Assembly (NCBI RefSeq): GCF_019039035.1
Contig: NZ_JAHNZT010000018.1
Coordinates: 62,001-126,000, forward strand
From: Citreicoccus inhibens
GTDB lineage: Bacteria > Myxococcota > Myxococcia > Myxococcales > Myxococcaceae
DNA length: 64,000 nt
Reading direction: 5' to 3'
This document shows, piece after piece, positions 16,084 to 37,712 of the stretch. A model generated the notes under the pieces. The model did no database searches and had not been told where the DNA came from. It was given only the letters and a program-made list of their open reading frames with translations. The number at the start of each line of letters is the position of its first letter. Within the stretch, counting starts at the first letter, position 1. A program made the position numbers and the translations under genes.

Positions 16084-16118
16084 CAGCGCAACACCAACCA
16101 GATAGGGGAGTAGACACG

Positions 16119-17066: not shown

Positions 17067-17123
17067 GCGCCTGTCATTGAAGGCCGGGGCGCGCCCGCGC
17101 GGGCGCTCCGGTCGCTGAACCAG

Positions 17124-17162
17124 ACCGGGCACCGCCGTGGAGCTCCACGCGCGGTGCCCGGT
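17124..17162 (+). terminator. Long hairpin between Hint genes 2 and 3
   Basis: ACCGGGCACCGC pairs with GCGGTGCCCGGT, and CGTGG with CCACG inside it around an AGCT loop. This gives about 17 bp of stem with a one-base bulge. It is followed by GTCGCGTCCTG, not a T run, so it may be a processing or attenuation structure instead of a terminator. Confidence 0.5.
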
Positions 17163-17219
17163 CGCGTCCTGTCGTGGCACTCCCTGTCGCACCCGCCCGT
17201 CGTCCTCACCGAGGAAGCC

Positions 17220-18263: not shown

Positions 18264-18308
18264 ACATCGCCAGCATTCACCTCAAGTGCGTCAATAATTA
18301 CCCTGAGA

Positions 18309-18339
18309 CACGGCCCGGAATGACACCTTCCGGGCCGTG
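18309..18339. terminator. Bidirectional terminator between convergent genes
   Basis: A perfect 12-bp inverted repeat (CACGGCCCGGAA / TTCCGGGCCGTG) with a 7-nt loop sits between the stop of Hint gene 3 and the stop of the leftward gene at 18358. The position suits termination of both transcripts. Confidence 0.75.
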
Positions 18340-18357
18340 AAAGGACTCACCCGGGCG

Positions 18358-19539
18358 TCACATGCCCATGGGGTCCATGCCCAGGATCAGCGAGCCGTTG
18401 TTCGTGTACAGGTTGTAGCTCTGGTTGATACCGCCCCAGCTGGCGATGGTCAGCCACCAGGTCTTCTTGAAGATCCAGAAGCCAATCCGGACATACAGCT
18501 TGAGGGTACCGGCCAGGGCGTTCAGGTTGAGCGTGGCCTTCAAGGTCCAGTCGAGGGAGTAGAAGGGCCAGAACAGCTCGGCGTAGGCCGGCAGGTTGAT
18601 GTTGATGAGGGTCAGGCTGCCCTCGACACCAAAGCCCGCGATGATGATGTCCACGCCCGCGGAGGCCGTGACGTTCGCCCAGCCACCCGGGGTGGCGGTC
18701 AGGCGGGCCACGGTGGGGCCAATCTGGCCCGTCACGGTCAGCTTCACGCCGCCGCTGACGGACGCCGCGACGCGCACGGGAACGGGGCCGACCATGAACG
18801 TCTTCGAGGCGGAGAAGAACGTGCGGCTCCAGTTGATGGGCGTGATTTCGAAGCTGTAGAAGAGGTTGCCGGACCAGATCTGCTGGCCCATGGCGTACAC
18901 CTTCGCGGTGCCGCTGTTGTTGCCGCCCTGCTGGCCGGAAATCTCAGCGCGCCCTCGGACAATCTCCTTCTGGAAGCTGAACGCGGTGGCCGTCACCTTG
19001 CCTTCGGCATAGGCCTCCACGCGCTTCTCGCCCACGCCCGTGGACGGCGTGGCCGTCATGGACGCGTCGATGACATAGCCCGCGCCGAACAGGCTGTTGC
19101 CCAGGCCCTCGTTGCGGAAATAGCTCTTGGTGAAGGGCTGGTTGCCCGTGGGCAGCGACGCGCTGTCGTTGGTGACCGTCACCGCCGGCTGGACGTTCTG
19201 CGTGTTGGCCTCGGGGATGACCCCTTGGTCAATCGAGATGTTCGGCTTGCCATCCGCCGGGTCGGTGCCCAGCGTGCCGTGGGTCAGCGAGACCTCCTGA
19301 TTGATGATGAGCTGCTGCTCGGACGCCGTGTAGTTGGGCGAGAACGGGTACGAGGACTTCCAGGGATAGTTGTTGTCCAGCTGGTAGCCAGACGGATACG
19401 TCGTCGCCGGGAACGCGCCGGTGTCCACCGTATAGACAACCGGATCGGAATACGACGGCACCTGCGCCAGCGCGACCTGAGGAACCACGACGGCACAAAC
19501 CGCCGCGGCGACGCCGGATAACAGACGCAACTTATGCAT
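18358..19539 (-). CDS. Exported beta-rich protein of unknown function
   Basis: The start at 19539 has GGAGGGGG upstream and gives 393 residues with a clear signal peptide (VVPQVALAQ). The mature protein is rich in Thr, Ser, Asn and aromatic residues with alternating hydrophobic positions (ATLNLNALAGTLKLYVRIGF, SLTLINI), which suggests extended beta structure. There are no cysteines after the signal and no lipobox. I do not recognise the family. It could be a secreted beta-sandwich or a repetitive surface protein. The upstream DNA is AT-rich. Confidence 0.7.
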   Translation of the reverse strand: MHKLRLLSGVAAAVCAVVVPQVALAQVPSYSDPVVYTVDTGAFPATTYPSGYQLDNNYPWKSSYPFSPNYTASEQQLIINQEVSLTHGTLGTDPADGKPNISIDQGVIPEANTQNVQPAVTVTNDSASLPTGNQPFTKSYFRNEGLGNSLFGAGYVIDASMTATPSTGVGEKRVEAYAEGKVTATAFSFQKEIVRGRAEISGQQGGNNSGTAKVYAMGQQIWSGNLFYSFEITPINWSRTFFSASKTFMVGPVPVRVAASVSGGVKLTVTGQIGPTVARLTATPGGWANVTASAGVDIIIAGFGVEGSLTLININLPAYAELFWPFYSLDWTLKATLNLNALAGTLKLYVRIGFWIFKKTWWLTIASWGGINQSYNLYTNNGSLILGMDPMGM

Positions 19540-19786
19540 GGGACCCCCTCCTGCTTGGTTTTGTCTCCGCTTACATTGCAAAACGCGGAAACAATGCGGG
19601 TCATACTTTCGCAACGCATGAAGTGTCAATTCGATTTCACTAAGAGTGCGTCAGTTTTATGGCGCTCCTGACAGATTTTTAAACCCTGACCGGGGCCCTC
19701 TCCTGGCATGACACCCCGCAAAAACTCGCATGAATCTTTCGAGACGCACTAGGCGTGAGGCCGGCGAGCATGCTAGCGATTGGGGC
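19540..19786. promoter_or_regulatory. AT-rich divergent promoter region
   Basis: The stretch 19556-19690 is AT-rich for this genome (for example GTCAATTCGATTTCACTAAG and CTGACAGATTTTTAAACC). It lies between two divergent exported-protein genes and should hold their promoters. Confidence 0.45.
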
Positions 19787-21803: not shown

Positions 21804-23039
21804 GTGTCCGCTCCTTCCTCGCCGCGCTTCGCCTCGTTCCGGGCCTTCTCGCACCGCGACTACGCGGCCATCTGGACGGGCACCCTGGTGTCCAACATCG
21901 GCACGTGGATGGAGTCCATCGCGCTGGGCGTCCACGTCACCCAGGTGACGGGCGAGGCGGCCTGGACGGGCGCGGTCGCGTCGCTGACGTACCTGCCGTC
22001 CCTCGTGTTGTCCCCGCTGGGCGGCGTGCTGGCGGACCGGTTCGACCGGCGCGCGTTCCTCTCCGTGTGCGTGGGTGCGCAGGCGTTGCTCGCGGCGTTG
22101 CTCGCGGCGCTGGCCTACACGGACCACCTCACCGTGCCGGCCATCGCCATCGTGTCGCTGCTCAATGGCAGCCTCAACAGCATCTTCGTCCCGGCGGCCA
22201 CGGGCCTCATCGCCGCGGTCGTCCCCGCCGAGGACCTGCACAGCGCGCTGAGCCTGGACTCGGCGCAGTTCAACCTGGGCCGCATCGTGGGGCCCGCGCT
22301 GGCGGCGCTGGTGCTGGCCGCGGGCGGCATCACCTGGGCGCTGCTCATCAACGCGCTGTCCTTTGGCGCGGTGCTGCTGGCCATGACGCGCGTGCGCGGC
22401 GGCGCGCTCCCCGCGGCCACGCGCCGCGAGCCCCTGTGGCGAGGCCTGGCGGACGGCGCGCGACTGGCCTGGGAGGACCCGGGCATCTTCCTCGCGCTGC
22501 TCGCGGTGCTGGGGGTGGGCCTGCTCATCACCCCGTTCATCGGGCTGGTGCCCGTCTTCGCGCTGCGCGTGCTGAACCTGGGCAGCTCGGCCACCGCGAT
22601 GCTGGTGACGGCGCAGGGCACGGGCGCGGTCATCGCGGCCTTCCTCGCCAGCGCGGCGGCGAGACGCATCGGACAGCGCAGGCTCCTGGAGGGCGCGCTC
22701 GTGGTGCTGGGGCCGGCGACCGCGCTCTACTGGCTGTCCCCCACCCTGCCCATGGCGACCGCGGCCCTGTTCGTCCTGGGCGCGGTGTACCTGTTGACGT
22801 TCAGCGGCTTGAAGACGGTGTGTCAGGCGCGCGCGCCGCTCGCGCTCCAGGCGCGCATCAGCAGCCTGTTCACCGTGTTCATCAACCTGGGCTACACGGT
22901 GGGCGTCGCGGGGCAGGCGGAGCTGGCGGACCGGCTGGGCGTGCGCCTCGTCACCGCCACCGCGGCGCTCGGCTTCTTCGTCCTGGTGCTGACCACGCGC
23001 GCGCTCAGCCCCCGGGGCCTGGCGTCCCTGGGCACCTGA
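21804..23039 (+). CDS. MFS transporter (EntS/MFS_3-like)
   Basis: A 411-residue protein with about 12 hydrophobic segments and a GTG start preceded by AAGGGAG. The N-terminal FSHRDYAAIWTGTLVSNIGTWMESIALGVHV segment and the VLADRFDRR loop are typical of the MFS_3/EntS drug and siderophore exporter group. It probably exports a small molecule across the inner membrane. Its stop lies 3 bases from the stop of the leftward AmCP operon. It may serve the biosynthetic cluster, though the cluster also has an EmrAB-type pair. Confidence 0.85.
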   Translation: MSAPSSPRFASFRAFSHRDYAAIWTGTLVSNIGTWMESIALGVHVTQVTGEAAWTGAVASLTYLPSLVLSPLGGVLADRFDRRAFLSVCVGAQALLAALLAALAYTDHLTVPAIAIVSLLNGSLNSIFVPAATGLIAAVVPAEDLHSALSLDSAQFNLGRIVGPALAALVLAAGGITWALLINALSFGAVLLAMTRVRGGALPAATRREPLWRGLADGARLAWEDPGIFLALLAVLGVGLLITPFIGLVPVFALRVLNLGSSATAMLVTAQGTGAVIAAFLASAAARRIGQRRLLEGALVVLGPATALYWLSPTLPMATAALFVLGAVYLLTFSGLKTVCQARAPLALQARISSLFTVFINLGYTVGVAGQAELADRLGVRLVTATAALGFFVLVLTTRALSPRGLASLGT

Positions 23040-23042
23040 GCC

Positions 23043-24122
23043 TCACGTGGGGGACGGTGTCCCCTTCGGGGGCAGCAGGGCCAGCACGCGCGTCAGCACC
23101 GCCACGCCCTCCTCGTACTCGGGCACGGTGATGTGCTCGTGAGGCGTGTGGTCCAGCGAGGAGTCCCCAGGGCCGTACGCCACGATGGGGACGTTCCACG
23201 CGGACGCCACGGTGTTCCAGTCCGAGGTGCCGGTCTTCAACCGCAGCGTGGGCCGCGCGTTCCGCTCGCGGATGGCCTGCTTGAAGGCGCGTGACAGCGC
23301 ATCGTGGCCCGCCGTGGAGACCGCGGCCTTGCGCGACACCGTCCGCACGGTGACCGAGGGCACCTCGCTCAACAGCGCGAGGAGTTGCTCCACGTCGGTG
23401 GAAGGCCCCGTGCGGATGCTGACCGCGGCGGTGGCCCACTCCTCCTCGTCCGTGGCCCCGGTGTGGAAGGCGTTGAGCGAGGGGAGGTGCTGCTCGAACA
23501 AGGACGTGCGCTCGCGGTTCCACGCGTCGCACGCGCGCCTGAGCAGATTCCAGGCCTCCACCACGTGCTCGGCGGACGCGCGGTAGTCCCGACTGGCCGT
23601 GTGCCGCCGCGCCGCGCGGTGCTCCAGGTCCAAGCGCAACAGGCCCTTGTAGCCAATCGTCACCGCATGCGCGCCGCTCGGCTCGCCGTTGATGACGTAA
23701 TCAGGTGCGTAGCGCTCCTTCACGTGGAAGGCGCCCCGGGTGATGGCCACCTCTTCCTCCACGCAGCCCAGGAGCAGGAACCTCTTCCCGGCGCGCTCGG
23801 ACGCCGTCAGCGACTCCACCGCCTCGACGAACGCGGCGATGGCGCCCTTCGCGTCCACCGCGCCCCGGCCATAGAGCGTGTCACCGTCCATGCGGACGGG
23901 CACCTCGCCGGGAACGGTGTCGATGTGGCCCAGGAGCGCGATGACGGTGTCCCCCTCCCCGTGGCTCGCGATGGCGTTGCCCACCTCGTCGGTGTGCGCG
24001 CGCCAGCCCTGGCGGCCCAGCCGCTCGACGAGGGCGCGCGAGAAGGCCTGCTCGTGATGGCTCGGGCTGTAGTGCTCGACCATCCACCGCAACAACGCGA
24101 TGCTCGGCTCACGCGCCTGCAT
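23043..24122 (-). CDS. lysK: LysK-type deacylase (M20 family), releases the product from LysW
   Basis: A 359-residue M20-family metallohydrolase of the LysK/ArgE group. Metal-site motifs can be read as GHIDTVPG (His), GRGAVDAKG (Asp), GCVEEE (catalytic and metal Glu), INGEPSG (Glu) and a late LDHTPHEH (His). In AmCP pathways LysK cuts the amide between the finished amino acid and the C-terminal Glu of LysW. It is the last gene of the ten-gene operon and overlaps the kinase gene by 14 bases. A longer upstream frame lies inside the kinase gene and is rejected. ArgE-like activity on a free N-acyl amino acid is the alternative. Confidence 0.88.
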   Translation of the reverse strand: MQAREPSIALLRWMVEHYSPSHHEQAFSRALVERLGRQGWRAHTDEVGNAIASHGEGDTVIALLGHIDTVPGEVPVRMDGDTLYGRGAVDAKGAIAAFVEAVESLTASERAGKRFLLLGCVEEEVAITRGAFHVKERYAPDYVINGEPSGAHAVTIGYKGLLRLDLEHRAARRHTASRDYRASAEHVVEAWNLLRRACDAWNRERTSLFEQHLPSLNAFHTGATDEEEWATAAVSIRTGPSTDVEQLLALLSEVPSVTVRTVSRKAAVSTAGHDALSRAFKQAIRERNARPTLRLKTGTSDWNTVASAWNVPIVAYGPGDSSLDHTPHEHITVPEYEEGVAVLTRVLALLPPKGTPSPT

Positions 24123-24975
24123 CCGCCACCGCCCTTCCCGGCTGGGTGAACCGCGTGCCCCCCAGTCCCTCCAGCGCGCAGAACACGGGCCGCGCCGCGC
24201 GAGCGGCGCTGACATGCACCACGGGCACCCCGCCCTCCAGCGCTCGCGCCGCGGCCTCCAACTTGTAGCGCATCCGCCCACGCGCCAGCCGCATGCTGCC
24301 GCGCGCATCGTCGCTCTCGCGCACCAGCGAGGAGGGCTCCGCGGGGTCCGCCAGGAGCCCGGGCACGTTGGACAGCATCACCAGCGCCCGCGCGCCCAGC
24401 CTCACCGCGAGCGCGGCGGCCACCTGATCCGCGTCCACGTTCACCAGCACATGGTCCGCAGTGACCGCCGGGGGACAGATGACGGGCACCTGCCCCACGG
24501 ACGCGAGCGCGTCGAGCAACGCGACGTTGATGTCGGTCACCTCCCCGGCCAGATGCTCCCGGTCGATGCGCACGCGCCCCTCCTCTTGGAGCTTCAGCGG
24601 AGCGCGCCGATTCGCGGTCAGCACCCGGCCGTCCGCGCCACACAACCCCACCGCGGATACGCCCCGAGCGAGCAGCGCGAGGACCACGGCCTTGTTCACC
24701 TCGCCCACCCACGCCATGGTGAGCGCGCGCAGGGTGGGCGCGTCGGTGAGGCGCACCACGTTGCCGCTCACCGTCGTCGCCTCGCGGCGCGCGAGCCCCA
24801 GCGAGGACAAGAGCCGCTCGCCCGCGTCCGAGCCCCCGTTGACGACGACCACGCGCTCGCCTCGCCGGGTCAGCTCGGCGATGTCCTCGCAGGCGCCGTC
24901 CAGGTCCACGCCCGCGGCCCCGCCAATCTTCACCACCACGGGAGGACCCGCGTGGCCAACGGACGTGGCGCTCAT
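24109..24975 (-). CDS. lysZ: LysZ-type kinase (LysW-gamma-glutamyl/aminoadipate kinase)
   Basis: A 288-residue amino-acid kinase family protein. KIGGAAG at residues 16-22 fits the phosphate-binding region, with NGGSDAGE, GLCGADGR, NVDADQVAAALA and LSNVPGLL downstream, as in N-acetylglutamate kinase and LysZ. In AmCP pathways it phosphorylates the side-chain carboxylate of the amino acid held on LysW. It overlaps lysK downstream, and its start overlaps the SDR stop by 4 bases (ATGA). Primary-metabolism ArgB is the alternative, but the operon partners favour LysZ. Confidence 0.9.
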   Translation of the reverse strand: MSATSVGHAGPPVVVKIGGAAGVDLDGACEDIAELTRRGERVVVVNGGSDAGERLLSSLGLARREATTVSGNVVRLTDAPTLRALTMAWVGEVNKAVVLALLARGVSAVGLCGADGRVLTANRRAPLKLQEEGRVRIDREHLAGEVTDINVALLDALASVGQVPVICPPAVTADHVLVNVDADQVAAALAVRLGARALVMLSNVPGLLADPAEPSSLVRESDDARGSMRLARGRMRYKLEAAARALEGGVPVVHVSAARAARPVFCALEGLGGTRFTQPGRAVADAGA

Positions 24976-25745
24976 CCCATCACGCTCGCGCCACCATCCA
25001 CGAGTTGCACCGTGCCCGTGATGAAGGACGCGCGCTCGCTGGCGAGGAACACGGCCGCGGCGGCGAACTCGTCCGCGCGCCCCACGCGCTTCATGGGGAT
25101 GTGCGCGGCCATGGCGCGCAGCCCCGCGTCCAGGTCGCCCGAGGCGCCCGCGGTGCGCTCCACCGGCGGCGTGCGCGTGTAGCCGGGCGCCAGCACGTTG
25201 ACGGTGATGCCCGAGTCGCCCAGCTCCTGCACCAGCGCCTGGGCGAACGCGACGATGCCCGAGCGCGCGAAGCCGGACAGCGCGAACCGGGCCACCGGGC
25301 GCACCACCGTCTCGGAGGTGATGAAGAGCAAGCGCCCCCAGCCCGCCCGCTTCATGTACGGCAGCGCCGCGAGCGCCAACCCGATGGGCGGCAGGAGCAC
25401 CGCGTTCGTCGCGTCGCGGTAGTCGTCCACGTCGAAGCCCGTGGCGGGTCCCGGCGGGGGTCCCCCGCTGTTCGTCACCACGATGTGCGGGCCGCCCAGC
25501 TTGCCGGACACCAGCTCCACCCAGCGGCGCATGGCCGCCCCGTCCCGGACATCCATGGGAGAGGCGAGCACCCGACCTCGGCCCACCGCGGTGAGCATGC
25601 GCTCCGCGCGCGCGAGGCGCTCGGGGTCACGCGCCGCGATGGCCACGTGCGCGCCTTCCTTCACCAGCTCTTCGGCCACCGCGAGCCCCAGACCGCTGGA
25701 GCCTCCGGCGACGAGCGCGACCTTATTGGCGAGTCCCAGTTCCAA
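24972..25745 (-). CDS. Short-chain dehydrogenase/reductase with degenerate active site
   Basis: A 257-residue classical-length SDR. The cofactor motif AGGSSGLG (residues 13-20), the N-terminal fold and ITVNVLAPGYTRT are intact. A Ser is present at 144 (ITSET). The usual YxxxK is missing: at the expected spacing the sequence reads Ser157-GFA-Arg161. Such variants form a known subgroup of FabG-like SDRs with unusual chemistry. In this operon it could reduce the ketone left by the transketolase, or it may no longer be a standard reductase. It overlaps the sulfotransferase gene by 23 bases. Confidence 0.85.
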   Translation of the reverse strand: MELGLANKVALVAGGSSGLGLAVAEELVKEGAHVAIAARDPERLARAERMLTAVGRGRVLASPMDVRDGAAMRRWVELVSGKLGGPHIVVTNSGGPPPGPATGFDVDDYRDATNAVLLPPIGLALAALPYMKRAGWGRLLFITSETVVRPVARFALSGFARSGIVAFAQALVQELGDSGITVNVLAPGYTRTPPVERTAGASGDLDAGLRAMAAHIPMKRVGRADEFAAAAVFLASERASFITGTVQLVDGGASVMG

Positions 25746-26670
25746 GCACGTCCCTCCTGGAGTCGGCGACGGGGGCGGCGCCGGAGAAGTAGCCGTAGCG
25801 CGCCATCAGCGGCCAGGCCATGGCCAGCGTGGTGGCGCGGGCCGAGGCGGACAGCTCGCCCCGCCATGCATCGTCTTCGCCGCGCAGCAACGTGGGGCCG
25901 CTGCGGAAGCGGTCCGGATTGCCGGTGACGGTGTGATTCGTTCCCAGCACCACCGTGCGCCCATCCACCGGATTGCGCGCGCGGTCCACGCCCATCCGGT
26001 CGAGCAGCGTGTCCACCGTCGCGCCCGGCGCCGCGATGAAGTCCTCGTAGCGAAGGAAGACGGACGCGCTCGGGTGGCGGCGCGTCACCTCCTCCGACGC
26101 GACGTTGAAGCCCACCCAGTACGCGGTGCTGCGGGCCGCGGACATGGGGACGACGTACTGCTTCGTCTTCGTCCACGAGTGCGTCACCGCGCGCGGGTCG
26201 CGCACCAGGTGCAGGTACAGCGGGCGAATGCCTTCCACGTGCGGGAGCAGCGCCGCCTCGGAGGGGAACTTGCCGCTGTCCACCAGCACCGTGCTGCCCG
26301 TCGCGTCCGCGATGGTGCGGTAGGTCCGCGCGAGGAAGGCCGCGTGCTCGCGCAGTGGCGTGGACTCGCCCGCCTCGTCCAGGACGCGCCACGTGTGTCG
26401 GGTGCGCACGGCGGCCTGCTGCCGCTTCACCACGTCCGCCGCGCGCGCGGGCCCCTCGAGGACGGCCTTCCAGATGGCGCAGTCCACCAACTGCGTGCCG
26501 CAGCCGCACAAGGTGTTGGAGCCGTGGCCGTACGCGTTCTTCCAGAGGAAGCTCAGCTCGCCCACGTGGAAGGCGCCCGGCAGCTCATTGAGCACGTTGC
26601 CGAGGATGGTGCTGCCGCTGCGGCACCAGCCGGTGATGTAGAGGACCGTGAGCACGGGCGCGTCCGCCAT
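25723..26670 (-). CDS. PAPS-dependent sulfotransferase
   Basis: A 315-residue protein (ATG start at 26670; a GTG two codons earlier overlaps the shell-protein stop). The 5-prime phosphosulfate-binding loop is GWCRSGST near the N-terminus. The 3-prime phosphate motif LHLVRDPRAVTHSW lies mid-protein. It also has the CGCG...C cluster seen in related bacterial sulfotransferases. It should transfer sulfate from PAPS to a hydroxyl. In azinomycin/vazabitide-type pathways sulfation of an AmCP-bound hydroxyl makes a leaving group for ring closure, a plausible role here (inference). Confidence 0.85.
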   Translation of the reverse strand: MADAPVLTVLYITGWCRSGSTILGNVLNELPGAFHVGELSFLWKNAYGHGSNTLCGCGTQLVDCAIWKAVLEGPARAADVVKRQQAAVRTRHTWRVLDEAGESTPLREHAAFLARTYRTIADATGSTVLVDSGKFPSEAALLPHVEGIRPLYLHLVRDPRAVTHSWTKTKQYVVPMSAARSTAYWVGFNVASEEVTRRHPSASVFLRYEDFIAAPGATVDTLLDRMGVDRARNPVDGRTVVLGTNHTVTGNPDRFRSGPTLLRGEDDAWRGELSASARATTLAMAWPLMARYGYFSGAAPVADSRRDVLGTGTRQ

Positions 26671-26672
26671 CG

Positions 26673-27530
26673 TCACACCAACGCGGTGACGAAGAAGTGG
26701 GTGGGCAGGTGCACCGTGAGGGCCGTGTAGACCTCGCCGTACGCGGCCAGCCCCTCGCGCGGGAAGATGCCCGGCGGCGGCTGCGCGAAGCGGATGACCG
26801 AGCGGCCGCTGTCGAACAACGTGGCTGCGGCGGTGAAGTCCCCCACGATGACGGTGCCCGGGCTCACCATGCGCGTGCGGCAGATGCGAACCCCCATGCT
26901 GGCCAGGTCACCCAGGAGCCCGTTCTGGCCCACGAGGTGCGCGTAGAAGTCGAGCGAGTTGATGATGATGCCGTCCGCGGAGCCGCCCATCTGCTCCACC
27001 TCGGCGCACGCCGCCAGGAGCGAGGCCACGGGCGTCTTGCGCGGCGGCAGGCGGCGGATGCCCGGCGTCTCCAGCAGGCCCCGCACGCGCTCGCCGCCCT
27101 TGCCGATGCACAGCGCCTGGTTCTCCGCGGTGTTGAGACGCACGAGCAGGCGGAAGTCGATGAACTGCGCCAGCGCCTCGCGGTCCTCCAACAGCGGCCG
27201 AGGCACCTGGATCCACGCGGTGGTGGGCTTCAGGGCCATCTGGTCCTGATGGAACTCGAAGGCCGCCTCGGGACGCAGCTCCACGTCCTCCACCTTCACG
27301 GTGGGCGCGGTGCGCGGGTGCGTCTCGTACCAATAGGGCACGGGGTCCTTCTCCGCGCGCGCCACCTTGAACATGCCGCGCACCGCGATGCGCGGGCGGC
27401 GTTTGAAGCCGGGGAAGGCGTCGGTGATGGTCGTGTTGAACGAGACGGACGCCTGCGCGCCTTGCTGGTGGCACGCCTCCGCGAAGGCCCTGCCGGGAGA
27501 CACGTCCGCCGTCGTGACAAGCGAGCTCAT
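26673..27530 (-). CDS. Encapsulin-like protein with HK97 capsid fold in a biosynthetic operon
   Basis: A 285-residue protein with the hallmarks of an HK97-type major capsid protein. The long-helix segment is FIDFRLLVRLNTAENQALC (123-141), followed by GLLETPGI (151-158). An A-domain segment has ADGIIINSLDFYAHL (185-199), VRICRTRMVSPGTVIVGDF (214-232) and AATLFDSG (235-242). It is preceded by AAAGGA. No portal, terminase, prohead protease or tail gene lies nearby, so it is not a prophage capsid. I recall natural-product or family 3 encapsulins found beside AmCP, SDR and sulfotransferase genes; this gene fits that description. It may form a shell around, or a scaffold for, the pathway enzymes (inference). 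Confidence 0.82.
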   Translation of the reverse strand: MSSLVTTADVSPGRAFAEACHQQGAQASVSFNTTITDAFPGFKRRPRIAVRGMFKVARAEKDPVPYWYETHPRTAPTVKVEDVELRPEAAFEFHQDQMALKPTTAWIQVPRPLLEDREALAQFIDFRLLVRLNTAENQALCIGKGGERVRGLLETPGIRRLPPRKTPVASLLAACAEVEQMGGSADGIIINSLDFYAHLVGQNGLLGDLASMGVRICRTRMVSPGTVIVGDFTAAATLFDSGRSVIRFAQPPPGIFPREGLAAYGEVYTALTVHLPTHFFVTALV

Positions 27531-27542
27531 GGGATTCCTTTC

Positions 27543-28583
27543 CTAGAGGGGATGCAGCCCCCGGAAGCCGAGTCCCTCGGTCTCCGGACGCCCGAGCATG
27601 AGGTTGAGCGCGTGCACCGCCGTGCCTGACGCGCCCTTCACCAGGTTGTCGATGGCGGCGTTGACCACGATGCGTCCGCGCTCGGCATCCACGGACACCG
27701 CGAGGTCGCAGTGGTTGGTGCCGGTCAGCGGGCCCGGCTCCGGGAACGGCGACGCGGCGGAGTTGGGGCGCAAGAGCCGCACGAACGGCTTGTCCCGGTA
27801 GGCCATGGCGAGCACGCGCGCCACCTCGGCCTCGTCCACGGGGCGCGATGCGAACGCATGCACGGTGGCCAGGATGCCGCGCACGGCCGGCACGGCGGTG
27901 GCGCTGAAGTGGACGGTGGGCCGCACGCCCGTGACGCGCGAGACGACGTCCTCCAGCTCGCCCGTGTGCCGATGCCCCACGGGCCGGAAGCAGCGCAGCG
28001 CATTGGCGCGCTCGGGATGATGCGAGGAGCGCCCCGGCGTGGAGCCGCCGCCCGACGAGCCCGTCTTCGCGTCCACCACGACCTCGGGCTTCACCACGCC
28101 CGCGCGAATCAACGGGATGAGGGCCAGGAGCCCCGCGTGCGCCATGCACCCCGGGATGCAGACGAAGCGCGCGCCCGCGAGCGACTCGCCCATCCACTCT
28201 GGCAGCCCATACACGAACGTGGGCAGGCCCGGGGGGCGCGTGTTCTGCGGGTACCAGCGCGCATGCCCCTCGGCGTCCAGGCGGAAGTCCGCGCTCAGGT
28301 CCACCACGCGCTCGGCCAGGGGGGCCACGCGCGCCCAGCGCTGGAGCAGCTCGCCCGAGGGCAGACAGCTCACCAGCACGTCGCACGGCTCCAGCGCGTC
28401 ATGGGGCGCGTAGCGCAGCGCGCTCATCCCCCGGAGGTGCGGGTGCGGGAAGTCCAACCGCTTGCCCGCGAACTGGCCGGAGGTGGCCTGCACCACCTCC
28501 ACGGCCGGATGCGCCAGCAAGAGGCGCAGCACCTCGCCGCCGGTGTAGCCCGCCGCGCCCAGTACCGCCACGCGCACCGTCAT
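27543..28583 (-). CDS. lysY: LysY/ArgC-type acyl-phosphate reductase
   Basis: A 346-residue protein starting MTVRVAVLGAAGYTGGE, a Rossmann NADPH motif. The catalytic Cys lies in IPGCMAHAG, where ArgC/LysY usually have PGCYPT. SSGGGSTPGRSSHHPE and the late DNLVKGASG motif are typical of the family. It should reduce the LysW-bound acyl phosphate to the semialdehyde, the substrate expected for the transketolase. The start overlaps the LysX stop (ATGA). A shell-protein gene follows 12 bases downstream. Confidence 0.92.
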   Translation of the reverse strand: MTVRVAVLGAAGYTGGEVLRLLLAHPAVEVVQATSGQFAGKRLDFPHPHLRGMSALRYAPHDALEPCDVLVSCLPSGELLQRWARVAPLAERVVDLSADFRLDAEGHARWYPQNTRPPGLPTFVYGLPEWMGESLAGARFVCIPGCMAHAGLLALIPLIRAGVVKPEVVVDAKTGSSGGGSTPGRSSHHPERANALRCFRPVGHRHTGELEDVVSRVTGVRPTVHFSATAVPAVRGILATVHAFASRPVDEAEVARVLAMAYRDKPFVRLLRPNSAASPFPEPGPLTGTNHCDLAVSVDAERGRIVVNAAIDNLVKGASGTAVHALNLMLGRPETEGLGFRGLHPL

Positions 28584-29422
28584 CGCCGGACTCCCAGCAC
28601 GTGCTCGGCGATGAGGTCCGGCAGCGGGATGCCCGTCTGCTCGATGCTCCGACCGAACTCCACGCAGTGGTTCAGCTCGTTGACGTAGACCTCGCCCTCG
28701 CGCGTCTCCAGCAGGTCCACCGCAACGATGTCGCCGCCCACCGCCGCCGCGGCCTCTTCTGCCAGCTTCGCGTGCGCGGCGGGGACCTCGTAGCGCTCCG
28801 GCACCGCGCCGCGCGCCGTGTTGGTGATCCAATGCTCGGAGCGTCGGCGCATGCCGCCCACCGCGCGCCCCATCACGTACACGCGCAAGTCATAGCCCGG
28901 CTTGTCGATGTACTGCTGCACGAGCGCCACGTGGTCCTGCGCGCCGCCCGTGCCGAAGCGCGTGGACAGGATTCCCTCGGCGGCGCTGCGCGAGTCGATG
29001 CGCGCCACCATGCGACCCCACGAGCCCAGCACCGGCTTCGTCACCACGGGGTAGCCCCGCCGCTCGATCTCCGCGAGGCACGCTTCCTCATCGAAGGCCA
29101 CGAACGACCAGGGCTGCCGCACGCCGCGCGCCGCCAGCGCCGCGGACGTCAGGGCCTTGTCTCCGCAAGTGGAGATGGCGCGCGCGCTGTTGAGCACGCG
29201 TGCCCCCTTCACCTCCAGGAAGGTGGCCAGGTAGCGCGCCCGCGTGAAGGACATGCTGCGCATGAGCACCGTGTCGCTCTCGGACCAGGGCCGTTTGTCC
29301 AACGACAGCACGAGGTCCGCGTCCTGGTGCATGTGCACGACGCAGTCCCGCCGGCGGAGGGCGTCGTGAATCAGCCGCTCCTCGGCGCGCAGGCGCGTGT
29401 AGACGAGGTCGATCGTCGCCAT
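28580..29422 (-). CDS. lysX: LysX-type ATP-grasp ligase (amino acid to LysW)
   Basis: A 280-residue RimK/LysX-family ATP-grasp protein. VVTKPVLGSWGRMVARI is the ATP-binding lid region. YIDKPGYDLRVYVMG and VYVNELNHCVEFGRSIEQTG are the C-terminal ATP/metal-binding segments, very like LysX. It should join the alpha-amine of glutamate or aminoadipate to the C-terminal Glu of LysW, protecting the amine and giving the enzymes a protein handle. I cannot tell Glu from aminoadipate specificity by eye. It lies 7 bases after lysW. Confidence 0.92.
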   Translation of the reverse strand: MATIDLVYTRLRAEERLIHDALRRRDCVVHMHQDADLVLSLDKRPWSESDTVLMRSMSFTRARYLATFLEVKGARVLNSARAISTCGDKALTSAALAARGVRQPWSFVAFDEEACLAEIERRGYPVVTKPVLGSWGRMVARIDSRSAAEGILSTRFGTGGAQDHVALVQQYIDKPGYDLRVYVMGRAVGGMRRRSEHWITNTARGAVPERYEVPAAHAKLAEEAAAAVGGDIVAVDLLETREGEVYVNELNHCVEFGRSIEQTGIPLPDLIAEHVLGVRR

Positions 29423-29429
29423 GGGCCGA

Positions 29430-29624
29430 CTACTCGCCCCAGTCTTCCTCGACCTCGGGCGCCTCGGCCAGACGCAGTGGATTGAGCCCCACCACCTCCA
29501 GCTCCGCGTCGCAGCCCTCGCACGTCACGACCTCGCCCATCATCCGGTTCCCCCCCGGGACATCCAGCGCACACAGGGGACACGGGCTGCCACTCAGGGC
29601 GTCCATCTGCTTTTGCGGCTGCAT
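29430..29624 (-). CDS. lysW: Amino-group carrier protein LysW
   Basis: A 64-residue acidic zinc-ribbon protein. The zinc ligands are Cys15, Cys18, Cys35 and Cys38 (CPLC and CEGC). The C-terminal half (ELEVVGLNPLRL) and the invariant EDWGE end match LysW closely; Glu64 should carry the substrate through its side chain. Residues 1-11 and 21-30 are less conserved. The ATG directly follows the transketolase stop (TGAATG), and AGGAGGAG lies just before it. Confidence 0.95.
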   Translation of the reverse strand: MQPQKQMDALSGSPCPLCALDVPGGNRMMGEVVTCEGCDAELEVVGLNPLRLAEAPEVEEDWGE

Positions 29625-30662
29625 TCAACTCCTCCTCGTGACTGGTCCAACCGCCGCCATCCGGGGACGCGGCAGCGCGCTCAACACGCGCTCCGCCACC
29701 TGCGCCCCCTCCAAACCGTGTCCGGCCAGCAACGACTCGTGCGAGCCGGCCGTCGCGTCGTAGCGGTCCTGAAGCCCCACGCGCACCACGCGCCGGCCCA
29801 GGCCCACCGCGCCCACCGTCTCGCAGACCGCGCCCCCCAGGCCGCCCAGGACGTTGTGCTCCTCCACCGTCACCAGCAGCCGCGTGCGCTCCGCCGTCTC
29901 CAGCACCGCCGCCTCATCCAGCGGCTTGAGCGTGTGCACGTTCAACACGCGCGCCGACACACCTCGCGCCTCCAACAGTCGCGCCGACTCCAGCGCCACC
30001 GCCACGCCCACCTCGCCGTGCGCCAGGAGGCCCACGTCCTCGCCCTCGCGCAGGCACTGCGCGCGTCCCAGCTCGAAGGGACCGCGGGGCACGTCGTGCC
30101 GCGTGACGCGGTTGCGCCCCAGGCGCAGGTACACCGGGCCGTCGTGCTGAAGCATCGCGCGCGTGGCCTGCACCGTCTCCAGGCCGTCCATGGGGGACAC
30201 CACCGTCATCCCCGGCATGGCCCGGAGGATGGCCAGGTCCTCCACCGCGTGGTGCGTGGGCCCGAAGAACGCGCCCGCCACGCCGCCGTAATCACACACG
30301 AGCTTCACGTTCGCGCGCCCGTACGCCATGCCCAGGCGCACCTGCTCGCACGCCCGCATCACCCCGAACGGCGCGAACGAGTGGGCGATCACCACGTGGC
30401 CCACGCGCGCCATACCGCACGCCACGTCCACGAGCGTCGCCTCGCAGATGCCCAGGTTGAAGTAGCGACCCGGGTGCCGAGACTCGAAAGGGTCCGCGCC
30501 GCCGCCCAGGTCCGCCTCCAGGAAGACGATGCGCGGGTCCAGCTCCGCGAAGCGCGCCGCCGCGTGGCGGAACACGAGCCGCGAGGCCAGCTCCGGGTGC
30601 TCGCGAAGCCACACCTCGGGCGTCTCCGCCAGGTCCGCGCCGGGCCGTGACGCCGAGCTCAT
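29625..30662 (-). CDS. Transketolase, C-terminal subunit (split enzyme)
   Basis: A 345-residue protein equal to the pyrimidine-binding and C-terminal domains of transketolase. FNLGICEATLVDVACG holds the Glu that activates thiamine diphosphate, HSFAPFG and THHAVEDLAILRAMPGMTV follow, and VEEHNVLGGLG is in the C-terminal domain. It must pair with the subunit encoded just upstream. In vazabitide-type AmCP pathways such a split transketolase transfers a two-carbon ketol to the LysW-bound semialdehyde. The start overlaps the upstream stop (ATGA), consistent with equal synthesis of the two subunits. Confidence 0.92.
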   Translation of the reverse strand: MSSASRPGADLAETPEVWLREHPELASRLVFRHAAARFAELDPRIVFLEADLGGGADPFESRHPGRYFNLGICEATLVDVACGMARVGHVVIAHSFAPFGVMRACEQVRLGMAYGRANVKLVCDYGGVAGAFFGPTHHAVEDLAILRAMPGMTVVSPMDGLETVQATRAMLQHDGPVYLRLGRNRVTRHDVPRGPFELGRAQCLREGEDVGLLAHGEVGVAVALESARLLEARGVSARVLNVHTLKPLDEAAVLETAERTRLLVTVEEHNVLGGLGGAVCETVGAVGLGRRVVRVGLQDRYDATAGSHESLLAGHGLEGAQVAERVLSALPRPRMAAVGPVTRRS

Positions 30663-31486
30663 GACGCCTCCTCGCCCACGGACGCGAGCGCCCGGCGCAG
30701 GTGCTCTGGTGAGAACACCGCGTAGTGCGGGCCCTTGCCGCGCAGCATGGGGACGCCCGCGCCCTTCTGCGTATGCGCCACGAGGGCCCGAGGCCGCTCG
30801 CCCCCCGACTCCCGCAACGCGGCGCTCAGCGCGGTCAGGTCGTGCCCGTCCACCTCGGCCGTCTGGAAGCCAAACGCCTCCAGCCGCCGCGCCAGCGCGG
30901 CCTGCGACAGGATGGACTCCGTGGGCCCGTCGTTCTGTCCACCGTTGCGATCCACGACGAGCGTCAGCGCGGAGAGCCGATGGTGCGCGGCCACTTGCAG
31001 CGCTTCCCAGTTGGAGCCCTCGCCCATCTCTCCGTCGCCGCACACCACGAAGGTCCGATTGGGCTCGCCCTTCAGCTGGTGCCCCAGCGTGAGCCCCACG
31101 CCCAATCCCAGCCCGTGCCCCAGGCTCCCCGTGGCGAACTCCACGCCCGGCACCGCCGCGTTGACGTGGCCCGTGTAGGGACTGCCCTCCGCGTTGTAGC
31201 GGCGCACCAGCTCCTCGGCGTCGAGGAAGCCGAACTCCGCCAGCGCCGCGTACATCCCCGCGGCCGCGTGGCCCTTGGACAGGATGAGGTGGTCTCGCGC
31301 CGGGGAGAGGGGCGCGCGCGGATCCACCCGCATCACCTCTCCCAGCAACACCACCAACAGCTCCACCACGGACAGCGAGCCCCCCAGATGACAGCCAGAC
31401 GGCGTGGCCGCCAGCCTCAAAATGAGCCGCCGCACCCGCCGGGCTCGCCGCTCCAATTGGGATGCATTCGCCGAGAGAGGAATCAT
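30659..31486 (-). CDS. Transketolase, N-terminal subunit (split enzyme)
   Basis: A 275-residue protein equal to the thiamine-pyrophosphate-binding domain of transketolase. GCHLGGSLSVVELL, SKGHAAAGMYAAL, GSLGHGLGLG and GDGEMGEGSNWEA with NGGQND (the diphosphate/Mg motif) are all present. It is the first gene of the ten-gene leftward operon. The ribosome binding site is weak. It could in principle act on primary sugar phosphates, but its translational coupling to the C-terminal subunit and lysW argues for a dedicated pathway enzyme. Confidence 0.92.
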   Translation of the reverse strand: MIPLSANASQLERRARRVRRLILRLAATPSGCHLGGSLSVVELLVVLLGEVMRVDPRAPLSPARDHLILSKGHAAAGMYAALAEFGFLDAEELVRRYNAEGSPYTGHVNAAVPGVEFATGSLGHGLGLGVGLTLGHQLKGEPNRTFVVCGDGEMGEGSNWEALQVAAHHRLSALTLVVDRNGGQNDGPTESILSQAALARRLEAFGFQTAEVDGHDLTALSAALRESGGERPRALVAHTQKGAGVPMLRGKGPHYAVFSPEHLRRALASVGEEAS

Positions 31487-31682
31487 GCCCGTTGCGTCGC
31501 TGGCGTCAGCCCTTGGCTCCGGCTGTGTGCTGGCACCCTAGGAAATCGCATCGTGTTACGTCAACGCGGATTTTCTCAATATTCGGATGTGCGAGAAAAA
31601 CCTGCCTTTACCGGTGACAACGCCATCACTACCGTGCCGCTTCCCGCGCCGCGATACGTCAATTCCTGCGAGGAGATTCCAG
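31487..31682. promoter_or_regulatory. Divergent promoter region of the biosynthetic cluster
   Basis: This 196-base gap separates the leftward AmCP operon from the rightward NRPS operon, so both main promoters should be here. It includes an AT-rich tract (GGATTTTCTCAATATTCGG near 31568). AGGAG at 31671-31675 sits 7 bases before the ligase ATG. No regulator gene is adjacent. Confidence 0.55.
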
Positions 31683-33362
31683 ATGGGACAGCGATTCCAG
31701 AACCCAGCGGCCCAGACGCACGGCGCCCGCTATCGGCGGCGCGGTTGGTGGCGTGACGCCACGATTGTGGATGACCTTCGGCGCGCCGTGCAATCCCATC
31801 CAGGGAAGACAGCCATCATTGCCGCACGGTATTTTTCCAAGGATGTGACACGTCTGACCTTTGCGGACCTGAGCCGTTATATGGATCGCTTCGCCGGGGC
31901 GTTGCTGTCACTGGGGGTGGGTCGCGAGGACATCGTCGCGGTGCAGCTCCCCAATGGGTGGCAGTTCTCCGCGCTGGCGCTGGCGTGCGCGCGCGTGGGC
32001 GCGGTCATCGCGCCCATTCCTCCGGACTACCGCCGGCGTGAGGTGGAGTTCATCCTCGGGCGCACCGAGGCGTCCGTGTACATCGGGCCGCAGGCATGGG
32101 CGGGCTACACGCATCGCGACATGGCGCGGGACATCGCGGGGGTGCTGCCCTCACTGCGGCACCGCGTGTTCCTGGGCGCCGAGGGCGCGCTGGCGCCGGG
32201 GGAGCTGGACTTCGACGCCACCTTCGTCGCGCGCGCCTGGGAGGAGGAGCGGCCCGCCGCGGAGCTGGACGCGCGCGAGGCCCGCGCGGACGAGGTCTGC
32301 AATGTCCTCTACACGTCCGGCACCACGGGGGAACCCAAGGGCGTCATCCACTCGCACAACACCAACTACGGCATCACCCGGGCCCTGGGGGAAACGCTGT
32401 CACTGACGGGCGACGACGTCTTCTGCCTCCCCTCCCTGCTCACCGCCTCCACGGGATTCACCTATCTGTTCCAGCTCCCGGTGCAGCTGGGCGCCACGGC
32501 CGTCTACATGGACGTGGGTGACCCCGAGCTGACCCTCAAGCTCATCGAGGAGCACCGCGTCACCTTCTCGTATGGCATTCCCACCTACCTGATGAATGTC
32601 ATCGCGACGCAGCGCAAGCGTCCGCGCGACACCTCCTCGTTGCGAAAGCTGGCGACGGGCTCCATCCCCGTCCCGCCCCACCTCATCGCGGCCGTGAGGG
32701 AAATGTTCGGCATTCAACTGCACACACTGTGGGGAATGACCGAGAACGGCGCGGTCACCCTCACCCGTCAGGATGACCCGCCCGACTGGCCAGCCCACAG
32801 CGATGGCCGCCCCGTGGAGTGGATGGATGTCAGGATTGCCCCCGCCGTGGCCGAGGACGGGACGCCCTATCCAGACGGCACCGGCCGCTTGTTGGTGCGC
32901 GGTGCCAGCCAATGTCTGAGCTATTTCAAGCGTGACGACATCTATGCCGCCAGCGTGGACGCCGAGGGCTGGTTCGACACAGGCGACCTCGCCCGCGACG
33001 ACGGCCGGGGTGGCATCCGCATCGTCGGTCGCCTCAAGGATGTCATCTTTCGATATGGCTATAAGATTCCCGTCGTGGAAGTGGAGTCCGCGCTGTATTC
33101 CCATTCCAAGGTGAAGGAAGTCGCGGTGGTCGCGCACTCGGATGACACGATTGGCGGAGAGCGTGTCTGTGCCGTCGTCGTGACGCGAGAGGGCGAGGGC
33201 ACGCCCACCCTGGACGAGCTGCGCCAGCATCTGAAGCAGCAGGGCATGTCCAATCAGTACTGGCCGGACCGGCTGGAGCTGGTGGACGAGATGCCCAAGA
33301 CGGCCACCGGCAAGGTGCGCAAACACCTCTTGCGTGAGCAGCTCAAGGCGCGCGCGCGTTAG
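31683..33362 (+). CDS. Acyl/aryl-AMP ligase (ANL superfamily), predicted starter-acid loader
   Basis: A 559-residue stand-alone adenylating enzyme; the start has AGGAG 7 bases upstream. LYTSGTTGEPKGVIHSH is the phosphate-binding loop, LWGMTENGA is motif A5, and YKIPVVEVE and TATGKVRKHLL form the C-terminal motifs with the catalytic Lys. The N-terminal YRRRGWWRDATIVDDL resembles aryl- and cyclohexane-carboxylate ligases. It has no carrier domain, so the activated acid probably goes to the free carrier protein at 37443. The acid could be aromatic or aliphatic. CoA-ligase activity cannot be excluded. Confidence 0.85.
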   Translation: MGQRFQNPAAQTHGARYRRRGWWRDATIVDDLRRAVQSHPGKTAIIAARYFSKDVTRLTFADLSRYMDRFAGALLSLGVGREDIVAVQLPNGWQFSALALACARVGAVIAPIPPDYRRREVEFILGRTEASVYIGPQAWAGYTHRDMARDIAGVLPSLRHRVFLGAEGALAPGELDFDATFVARAWEEERPAAELDAREARADEVCNVLYTSGTTGEPKGVIHSHNTNYGITRALGETLSLTGDDVFCLPSLLTASTGFTYLFQLPVQLGATAVYMDVGDPELTLKLIEEHRVTFSYGIPTYLMNVIATQRKRPRDTSSLRKLATGSIPVPPHLIAAVREMFGIQLHTLWGMTENGAVTLTRQDDPPDWPAHSDGRPVEWMDVRIAPAVAEDGTPYPDGTGRLLVRGASQCLSYFKRDDIYAASVDAEGWFDTGDLARDDGRGGIRIVGRLKDVIFRYGYKIPVVEVESALYSHSKVKEVAVVAHSDDTIGGERVCAVVVTREGEGTPTLDELRQHLKQQGMSNQYWPDRLELVDEMPKTATGKVRKHLLREQLKARAR

Positions 33363-33408: not shown

Positions 33409-36400
33409 ATGACCCTCTCATCCCCCTCCGAGGCTTGGGACGTGCAGGACTCCGATGGGACACGGACGCGCGCCGCGCGCGCGCGCCGGGCCCCGCCCCT
33501 GACGGTGATTCCGCGCGAAGGGCCGCTGCGCCAGTCCTTCGCGCAGGAGCGTCTGTGGTTCCTCTCGCGGCTGGACGCGGGCGGCTTCTCCTACAACATC
33601 GCGTTCTTCGCGCGACTGGTGGGGCCACTGGACGCGGACGCCCTGGAGCAGGCCTTGCGCGCGCTGTGGCTGCGCCACGAGTCGCTGCGCACCACGTTCG
33701 GCGAGGAGGGCGGCCAGCCCGTGCAGCGCGTGGCGCCTGTGCCGGATACGGTGCTCGTCACGGAGACGCTGTCCGAGTACGCGAGCCCCGAGGCCCTGCG
33801 CGAGCGCGCCGAGCAGGAGGCCCAGCGCCCCTTCGACCTGGAGCGCGGCCCGGTGTTCCGCGCCACGCTCGTGAAGCTCGCACCGGACGCGCACGCGCTG
33901 CTCCTGGCCCAGCACCACATCGTGGGAGATGCGTGGTCCCTGGGCGTGCTCGCCCGCGAACTGGCCGCGCTCTATGGCGCGCTCACCCAAGGTGCCGAGC
34001 CGCGGCTCGCGCCGCTTCCGGTGCAGTACGCGGACTTTGCGCGGTGGCAGCGGGACTGGCTGGAGGCCGGCGCGCGGGACGAGCAGCTGTCCTGGTGGAT
34101 CCAACGACTGGCCGGCGTGTCTCCCGTGCTCGCGCTCCCCACGGACCGCCGCCGCCCTCCGGTGCAGACCTTCCGCGGCGCCAGCTTCCGCACGCACCTG
34201 CCCGCGGGGCTCACCGAGGCCCTCCAGCGGTGCGCCCGCGCGGAGGGTGTCACGCTGTTCATGACGCTGCTCGCGGCCTACCAGGTGCTGCTGGCGCGCT
34301 ACAGCGGGCAGGAGGACATCATCGTCGGCTCGCCCATCTCCGGCCGCGTGCGCCGCGAGCTGGAGGGCCTCATTGGCTTCTTCGTCAACACGCTGCCGCT
34401 GCACACGCGCGTCGCGCCCCAGGACACCTTCCACACCCTGCTGGGCCGCGTGCGTGAGCACTGCCTCGGCGCGTTCGCGAACCAGGACGTGCCCTTCGAG
34501 CACATCGTGGACGCGGTGCAGCCCACGCGTGACCTGAGCCGCACCCCGCTGTTCCAGGCGATGCTCACCCTCCAGCTCGGCTTCCCGGAGCTGACGCTCC
34601 CAGGGCTCGCCTCGGAGGAACTGGACTTCGAACCGGGCTTCGCCAAGTTCGACCTCACCCTGTTCATGCGCGAGACGCCGCAGGGGCTGGTGAACTTCTG
34701 GGAGTACAACACCGCCCTCTTCGACGAGGACACGGTGCGCCGCATGGCGGCCAACCACGTGCGGCTCCTGGAGGCCGTGGTGGCCCATCCCGAGGCGCGA
34801 CTGGGCACGCTGCCCCTCTTGTCGGACGCCGAGCGGCATCGGCTGCTCGTCGAGTGGGCCTCGCGGCGCGACGACTCGTTCGCCCCGGACCTCATCCACC
34901 ACTGGGTCCAGGCGCAGGTCCTCCGCACGCCGCACGCCGAGGCCGTCACCGACGGCACGCACACCCTCACCTACGCGCAGCTCGACGCGCGCGCCAACCA
35001 GCTCGCGTGGCACCTGCGCGCGCTGGGCGTTCCTCCGCTGGGCACCGTGGGGCTCTGCCTGGAGCGCGCAAGCCTGGACATGCCCGTCGCGGTGCTGGCG
35101 ACGATGAAGGCGGGGGCCGCGTTCCTCCCGTTGGACCCCAACCTCCCTGGGGAGCGGCTCGCGCTCATGCTGGAGGACACCGGCGCGCCCGTGGTGCTCG
35201 CGCACGCCGGACCGGCGCGCGCCCTGCCCGCGACGCTGCAGGCCCGCGTGGTCCGCCTGGAGCGGGCGGCCGAGGAGCTCGCCACCCGGCCCGCGCGCAC
35301 GCCCAGCGTGGACATCTCCCCCGAGGCCCCCTGCTACTTCGTCTACACCTCGGGCAGCACGGGCCGGCCCAAGGGCATCGTGATGTCCCACCGCGCGGTC
35401 GGGAACATGCTGGGCTGGCTGCTCCAGCGCGCGGTCAACCCCACGGCCACCACGCTCCAGTTCGCCTCGCTCAACTTCGATGTCTCCTTCCAGGAGATGT
35501 TCGGCACCTGGTGCTTGGGGGGCCGCGTCCTGCTCGTCTCCACCGAGACGCGGCGCGACCCCACCGCGCTGCTCCACCACCTGCTGCGCCACGGCGTGGA
35601 GCGCCTCTTCCTGCCCTTCGTCGCGCTCCAGTCACTCGCCGATGCCGCGCTGAGCGAGGAGCGCCTGCCTCCGCTCAACGAGGTCATCACCGCGGGCGAG
35701 CAACTCCAGGTGACGCCCGCGCTCGTGTCGCTCTTCGAGCGGCTCCCAGGCTGCGTGCTGGAGAACCAGTACGGCCCCTCGGAGGCGCACGTCGTCACCG
35801 CGTGGCGGGCCCGCGGCGCGCCGAGCACGTGGCCCTCGCTGCCGCCCATCGGCGAGCCCATCCCCAACCTCCAGGTGCTGGTGCTCGATGACCACGGGCA
35901 GCTCAGCCCCATCGGCGTCCCCGGCGAGGTGCACGTGGGCGGCGCCAGCCTCGCGCACGGCTATCACGGGCGGCCGGACCTCACCGCCGACCGCTTCGTC
36001 CCCTCGCGCTTCGGCACCACGCCGGGCGCGCGGCTGTACCGCACGGGAGACCAGGCGCGCTGGCTCGCGGACGGCACGCTGGAGTTCCTCGGCCGCCGTG
36101 ATGGGCAGGTGAAGCTGCGCGGCTTCCGCATCGAGCTGGGCGAGGTGGAGGCCGTGCTGCGCGCCCAGCCGGGCGTGAAGGACGCCATCGTCGTGGTGCG
36201 CGAAGACTCGCCCGGAGCCCGCCGACTCGTGGGCTACGTCGTCCTGCCCGCGTCCGCATGGGAGCCCGAGTCCTTGCGCGCGGCCCTCGCGCGGCGCCTG
36301 CCCGAGTACATGCTGCCCTCGGCCTTGGTGCGACTGGATGTCCTGCCGCTCATGCCCACCGGGAAGGTGGACCGCAAGGGCCTGCCCGTTCCTGCTCTGA

Positions 36401-37442: not shown

Positions 37443-37712
37443 GTGAGTACCGACACCGTCCTCCGCACGTCCATGGAGCAGAAGCTGGCCGATTACTGGC
37501 GCGACTCATTGGGGGTGGAGGTGGTGAGGCCGACGGACCACTTCCTGGAGATTGGCGGCAACTCGTTGCTCGCCACCATGTTGGCCAACCGCATCGAGGA
37601 CGAGCTGGGCGTGCAGGTCTCCATGGTGGACCTGTTCAACACGCTGGAGCACGTGGCCTCGCTCTGCGAGCAGCTCCTGCAGGAACAGGGCGGCTCGGCC
37701 CCCGCGGCCTGA
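37443..37712 (+). CDS. Free-standing carrier protein (PCP/ACP)
   Basis: An 89-residue protein with GTG start and AAGGAG 6 bases upstream. FLEIGGNSLLATMLANRI is the phosphopantetheine site, with the Ser in GGNSL. It is predicted to accept the starter acid from the ligase at 31683 and offer it to the first condensation domain of the following NRPS. A role as a carrier for the released amino acid is the alternative. Confidence 0.9.
   Translation: MSTDTVLRTSMEQKLADYWRDSLGVEVVRPTDHFLEIGGNSLLATMLANRIEDELGVQVSMVDLFNTLEHVASLCEQLLQEQGGSAPAA

Follow-up and report, generated by a model that had tools for sequence, protein, structure and literature searches.

A Family 3 encapsulin gene in a LysW-type peptide biosynthetic cluster of Citreicoccus inhibens and its pairing with LysW in split myxobacterial genomes

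Results

Gene neighborhood of the encapsulin

The window, i.e. the whole stretch of DNA that was analyzed, comprises 64,000 nucleotides of a contig from the myxobacterium Citreicoccus inhibens. It contains on the minus strand an intact open reading frame of 285 codons (26673-27530), which begins with ATG and has a coding-like GC3 of 0.95. The frame is embedded in a cassette of genes that are transcribed from the same strand. The first genes in the direction of transcription encode the N-terminal (ThDP) half of a transketolase (30659-31486; PF00456, 1e-28), its C-terminal half (29625-30662, start assigned by hand; PF02779/PF02780) and a LysW-type amino-group carrier protein of 64 amino acids with the C-terminus EDWGE (29430-29624; TIGR01206, 60.5 bits vs. 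a cut-off of 53.2). They are followed by a LysX-type ATP-grasp ligase, the enzyme type that loads the amino acid on LysW (28580-29422; PF22626 and PF08443, with TIGR00768 above cut-off), and an ArgC/LysY-type reductase, which gives the [LysW]-semialdehyde (27543-28586; TIGR01850, 315 bits vs. a cut-off of 234). Downstream of the frame at 26673-27530 are a sulfotransferase with a GTG start (25723-26676; Sulfotransfer_3, PF13469, 1.7e-10), an SDR oxidoreductase (24972-25745; PF13561, 2.2e-42) whose start overlaps the end of the sulfotransferase gene by 23 bases, a LysZ-type [LysW]-aminoadipate/glutamate kinase (24109-24975; NF010659, 240 bits vs. a cut-off of 223) and an M20 peptidase resembling [LysW]-amino acid hydrolases (23043-24122, start assigned by hand from the sequence). 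The latter matched PRK04443 with 354 bits (cut-off 363) and TIGR01902 with 280 bits, which is above cut-off.

The genes divergent from this cassette, all on the plus strand, encode an AMP-binding (acyl/amino acid adenylating) enzyme (31587-33362; PF00501), which is kept in every contiguous cluster, an NRPS module with the Pfam domain order C-A-T-TE (33409-37401), a stand-alone peptidyl carrier protein (37443-37712; PF00550), a four-module NRPS with its own thioesterase at the end (37790-51415; 4 C, 4 A, 4 T and 1 TE) and an MFS exporter (51425-53050; PF07690). Both NRPS proteins end in a thioesterase, which suggests two end points or products in the cluster. An MFS transporter on the plus strand (21804-23039; PF05977) is a conserved neighbor on the opposite side of the cassette. 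Further to the left of the cluster (13925-19629) are several long GC3-rich open reading frames without a family match, one of them with an SBBP repeat.

A preliminary description of this DNA had placed an HK97-fold, encapsulin-like protein inside a peptide biosynthetic cluster, overlapped or abutted by biosynthetic genes and with no phage genes around it. All of this was borne out. The stop of the gene overlaps the start of the sulfotransferase by 4 bases, its start lies 12 bases past the ArgC-like gene, and the LysW pathway, the sulfotransferase, the SDR and the NRPS genes surround it. Family scans of the flanking genes revealed no portal, protease, terminase or other phage structural or packaging gene. 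When the ten closest genes were scanned against PHROGs, the outcome was two matches to 'moron/auxiliary metabolic' families and two to families of unknown function; the protein itself had no PHROGs match even at E 10.

Family and predicted fold of the shell protein

The 285-residue protein matched the NCBIfam model NF041188, entitled "family 3 encapsulin nanocompartment shell protein", over its full length (model positions 1-266 of 266) and scored 358 bits, twice the cut-off of 180 (E 2e-107). In Pfam it matched PF05065 (Phage_capsid) with 9.7e-10; this was the only family reported at E values up to 10, and the marker of Family 1 encapsulins, PF04454 (Linocin_M18), was not matched. The nearest PDB chains by sequence belong to HK97 gp5 (4e-8 with the single sequence, ~1e-19 with a profile); a closely related chain did not turn up in the PDB version searched.

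An AlphaFold2 model computed from an alignment of 38 sequences predicts an HK97 fold with a pLDDT of 90.9 and a pTM of 0.87. It comprises an N-terminal helix (residues 12-26), an E-loop, a P-domain with its spine helix (117-142) and an A-domain; the protein contains no delta or scaffold domain. The best PDB match to this model in Foldseek is HK97 prohead I (8fqk; E 3e-19, TM 0.72-0.78). Family 1 encapsulins such as EncA of Myxococcus xanthus share with it the HK97 fold, the N-terminal helix and the small size but rank lower (E ~1e-10, 13% identity). The comparison of a predicted structure with encapsulins, proposed earlier as a check, thus came out as HK97-like. Together, these results leave little doubt that 26673-27530 is the gene of a Family 3 ('natural product') encapsulin.

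The alignment of Family 3 proteins spans classes with 42-98% identity. Three segments are invariant across it: SxGxxFAxA in the N-terminal helix, TAENQAL, and HLPTHF, which in the window protein occupies residues 274-279 near the C-terminus. Such invariance of SxGxxFAxA and HLPTHF across classes is unusual in a capsid protein and may reflect a shared binding site.

No ferritin-like or peroxidase gene, the cargo type of Family 1, is present near the window encapsulin. The same genome carries a Family 1 encapsulin gene on another contig (C22, 124188-124976), which is its sole PF04454 match (230 bits); hence genes for Family 1 and Family 3 encapsulins coexist in one genome.

Distribution of the encapsulin and its partners

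The encapsulin was found in 31 of 195 Myxococcota genomes, in 30 of them above cut-off and in one split over two contigs, and all of these proteins belong to the family of the window protein. An orthologous LysX (at least 71% identity) is present in every one of the 31 genomes. The only LysX without an encapsulin occurs in a genome (G139) that is 86% complete, in which the contig ends inside ArgC, before the position of the encapsulin. Encapsulin-free clusters with LysW and transketolase, which could have served for comparison, were not found in Myxococcota. The same neighbors accompany the encapsulin in at least 22 genomes.

Outside Myxococcota the family occurs in Catellatospora, Micromonospora, Allonocardiopsis, Nonomuraea, Trinickia, Ramlibacter and Paracidovorax, where the setting is different. 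One of these loci (L045) has the order A-T-reductase enzyme, aldo/keto reductase (AKR), sulfotransferase of a different family, encapsulin and MFS. The order AKR-sulfotransferase-encapsulin is present in all nine actinobacterial and beta-proteobacterial loci (L040-L048), and the A-T-reductase enzyme comes first in eight of them. The AKR of these loci has a highly conserved C-terminus, HRWDR.PT.WS. The sulfotransferases of myxobacterial and non-myxobacterial type are only marginally similar to each other (E 0.007). None of the nine loci has a LysW near the encapsulin, and LysW therefore cannot be a universal partner of Family 3 proteins.

Predicted chemistry of the cassette

Gene content and order of the cassette were observed directly; each chemical step described below is deduced from them. 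The predicted outcome of the pathway, which starts from glutamate bound to LysW, is a C7 unit of the 5-hydroxy-6-hydroxymethyl-pipecolate type. LysX would load glutamate on LysW, LysZ would phosphorylate it, and the ArgC/LysY-type enzyme would reduce it to LysW-glutamate semialdehyde. The split transketolase would then add a two-carbon ketol to the semialdehyde. The SDR may reduce the C6 ketone, after which the sulfotransferase would make a sulfate ester as leaving group. Once the M20 hydrolase has freed the amine, the amine would displace the sulfate and close a ring of the 5-hydroxy-6-hydroxymethyl-pipecolate type, which the adenylating enzyme, the carrier protein and the NRPS would use.

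The components resemble those of the azinomycin and vazabitide A pathways, which comprise LysW, LysX, kinase, reductase, a two-subunit transketolase and the sulfation logic (PMC9570651). In azinomycin biosynthesis the transketolase AziC5/C6 extends glutamate semialdehyde by two carbons, and the aziridine is formed when an amine displaces a sulfate (PMC9570651). The azinomycin and vazabitide A pathways lead to DADH by way of an aminotransferase, whereas the window cassette has an SDR in its place. No aminotransferase for the 6-amino group of DADH was found among the window genes scanned, which include some flanking open reading frames without a family match; this sets the pathway apart from the DADH route. 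To our knowledge the azinomycin and vazabitide A pathways have no encapsulin.

The myxobacterial and the non-myxobacterial settings have a common logic: a carrier-bound acid is reduced to an aldehyde, a second reductase follows, and then a sulfotransferase. This sequence of acid, aldehyde, alcohol and sulfate occurs with or without LysW.

Genomes in which LysW and encapsulin lie apart from the rest of the cassette

Eight genomes of the Myxococcus group (G114, G116, G117, G119, G120, G123, G128 and G130) have a split arrangement. Here the encapsulin gene follows directly after LysW, with a gap of 13 bases in the two loci measured (L052 and L061), and lies beside an NRPS; a methyltransferase gene is on the other side of the pair in the two loci scanned. 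The remaining pathway genes are in a second locus, which keeps the order transketolase halves, LysX, ArgC, sulfotransferase, SDR, LysZ and M20, and is without exactly two genes, namely LysW and the encapsulin. In G128, for example, the two loci have the positions 1.70 Mb and 6.41 Mb, and in G130 the positions 2.81 Mb and 8.37 Mb. A search of the whole genomes found one LysW per split genome, the one that adjoins the encapsulin. It follows that LysX of the second locus must use the LysW of the first.

In phylogenetic trees the pathway genes of the eight genomes are sister to the contiguous cassettes of the Myxococcus type (SH-aLRT 100). For the encapsulin of the same genomes this grouping is rejected (p-AU 0.002), and the protein is placed next to a different group (support 94/93). 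The simplest reading of these trees is complementary loss or replacement: a LysW-encapsulin pair with a separate origin would have taken the place of the native pair, the two genes of which are not adjacent in the cassette and would have been lost.

The persistence of the pair is suggestive of a functional unit of LysW and encapsulin in the split genomes. However, these genomes form one clade and represent one evolutionary event, and as evidence for such a unit they therefore have a small statistical weight.

Search for targeting signals

The terminal segments of the cassette enzymes were compared across orthologues for targeting peptides, and no universal terminal motif was found. The C-terminal motif (L/F/R)GTGT of the sulfotransferase has the look of a conserved tag behind a variable linker, but a targeting function was rejected. 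In every genome that has the motif except G116, it is encoded within the 23 bases that the sulfotransferase gene shares with the start of the SDR gene (TTGGAACTGGGACT; 25723-25745), an overlap that is conserved in most genomes. In Corallococcus an insertion separates the sulfotransferase and SDR genes, and LGTGT is lost; these insertions measure 0.2 to 1.7 kb (L037, L066-L069). In G116 (L086), where the overlap was undone by an apparent partial duplication, LGTGT is kept without the overlap by way of three synonymous changes, a weak hint at most.

Three further candidates were discarded. An N-terminal extension of the M20 hydrolase, considered as a loading domain, is explained by the overlapping LysZ reading frame and a start called too early. 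The N-terminal extension of LysW, 10-17 residues before the first cysteine, varies between groups. The basic C-terminal tail of the transketolase is present in most groups, but one group (G062, G064 and G129) lacks it and still keeps the encapsulin. Judged from gene linkage, the best cargo candidates are LysW, on account of the split genomes, and then the sulfotransferase, which is adjacent to the encapsulin everywhere else.

Discussion

The natural-product class of encapsulins mentioned in the preliminary description is already established. Family 3, the 'natural product encapsulins', goes back to Andreas and Giessen (2021, PMC8346489), who described 132 systems, mainly of Streptomyces and Myxococcus, and NF041188 covers the family in NCBIfam. 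According to these authors the proteins are annotated with PF05065 and occur in peptide clusters that also encode sulfotransferases, SDRs, NRPS/PKS and LysW-like amino-group carriers (PMC8346489). The window protein agrees with this description in sequence family, length, PF05065 annotation, lack of phage genes, peptide-cluster setting and myxobacterial host, and no feature sets it apart. The authors put forward the sequestration of reactive ketones or aldehydes as a possible function, without settling the role or the cargo (PMC8346489). Sequestration of reactive aldehydes or sulfate esters, as also suggested in the preliminary description, fits the gene content of the window; it is the same idea that has already been published as a hypothesis. 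We searched for assembly data on any Family 3 protein and found none.

Another myxobacterial Family 3 cluster is that for chloromyxamide in Myxococcus sp. MCy10608 (Gorges 2018, as cited in PMC8346489), and chloromyxamide is the only Family 3 cluster product named in PMC8346489 that has been studied experimentally. By its description, chloromyxamide contains 6-chloromethyl-5-methoxypipecolic acid, a C7 unit with the same skeleton as the one predicted here for the LysW pathway. On the same descriptive basis its likelier counterparts are the split-type genomes with a methyltransferase beside the LysW-encapsulin pair; a methyltransferase was not found in the window cassette.

As the explanation for these data we tentatively propose an icosahedral shell that holds or docks LysW with its covalently bound chain together with at least one late enzyme, the sulfotransferase and/or the SDR, a reading that we consider a real possibility, short of probable. 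The shell would keep the aldehyde, the hydroxyketone and the sulfate ester on the way to the C7 piperidine amino acid away from the cytosol. Family, predicted fold, gene content and order, co-occurrence and the split loci are the observations from which we infer assembly and cargo. LysW is the best candidate for a partner because the split genomes keep it with the encapsulin while the other pathway genes are elsewhere. Several results count against this explanation: no conserved targeting peptide was found in the cassette enzymes, the N-terminal extension of LysW varies, the split is a single evolutionary event, the non-myxobacterial loci have no LysW near the encapsulin, and the sulfotransferase of the split genomes is not beside the encapsulin.

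Alternatively, the cargo of the shell may be the sulfotransferase, either by itself or along with the SDR or AKR reductase, with LysW no more than a soluble substrate carrier whose linkage to the encapsulin gene in the split genomes is incidental. In favor of this idea, the adjacency of encapsulin and sulfotransferase is the one feature that myxobacterial clusters of the contiguous type have in common with the nine loci from actinobacteria and beta-proteobacteria, and the sulfotransferase ends in a variable, proline-rich tail. However, the conserved LGTGT end of this tail follows from the SDR start that overlaps it and disappears in Corallococcus with the overlap, the two sulfotransferase types are barely related, and in the eight split genomes the sulfotransferase is megabases away or on a different contig, while LysW stays with the encapsulin. 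We therefore consider this idea unlikely. The persistent linkage to LysW, which points to a role early in the pathway, also speaks against a shell that stores or sequesters the finished reactive product and so protects the producer instead of hosting biosynthetic steps. Exporters do flank the clusters, and the analogy with azinomycin implies that sulfate-activated amines act as alkylating agents (PMC9570651). Yet a peptide product is small, and no feature that would bind it is known; we consider product storage quite improbable.

The unusually strong conservation of SxG..FA.A, TAENQAL and HLPTHF would fit a domesticated capsid fold that has ceased to form closed shells and serves the LysW enzymes as a scaffold or partner. 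Against this stands the high-confidence prediction of a complete HK97 fold that includes the E-loop, the spine helix of the P-domain and the A-domain, and characterized encapsulins assemble into shells; we regard the scaffold as improbable. A capsid of a prophage, gene transfer agent or satellite that lies in the cluster by chance could account for the PF05065 match and for the phage HK97 proteins as closest folds. The locus contains neither a portal, protease or terminase nor a scaffold or delta domain, PHROGs gave no match to the protein, and its neighbors recur from genome to genome. The conserved biosynthetic context refutes a phage or gene-transfer-agent origin of the locus, and a chance insertion is extremely improbable.

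The protein class has been known since 2021; what is new here is the pairing of LysW with the encapsulin in the split genomes, together with the pathway assignment. The main text of PMC8346489 mentions neither this pairing nor the split arrangement. One may go a step further than a shell with LysW and a late enzyme and suppose that LysW and encapsulin are a functional unit, in which the shell takes in or docks the carrier with its chain, so that a protein-tethered intermediate instead of a free small molecule is compartmentalized, and which can serve pathway enzymes and two NRPS lines encoded megabases away; this we consider rather doubtful. The split genomes are a natural dissection of the cassette, and they narrow the search for cargo to one protein of 64 residues. 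Finally, the LysX cassette provides candidate genes for the as yet unexplained C7 pipecolic unit found in peptides of the chloromyxamide type.
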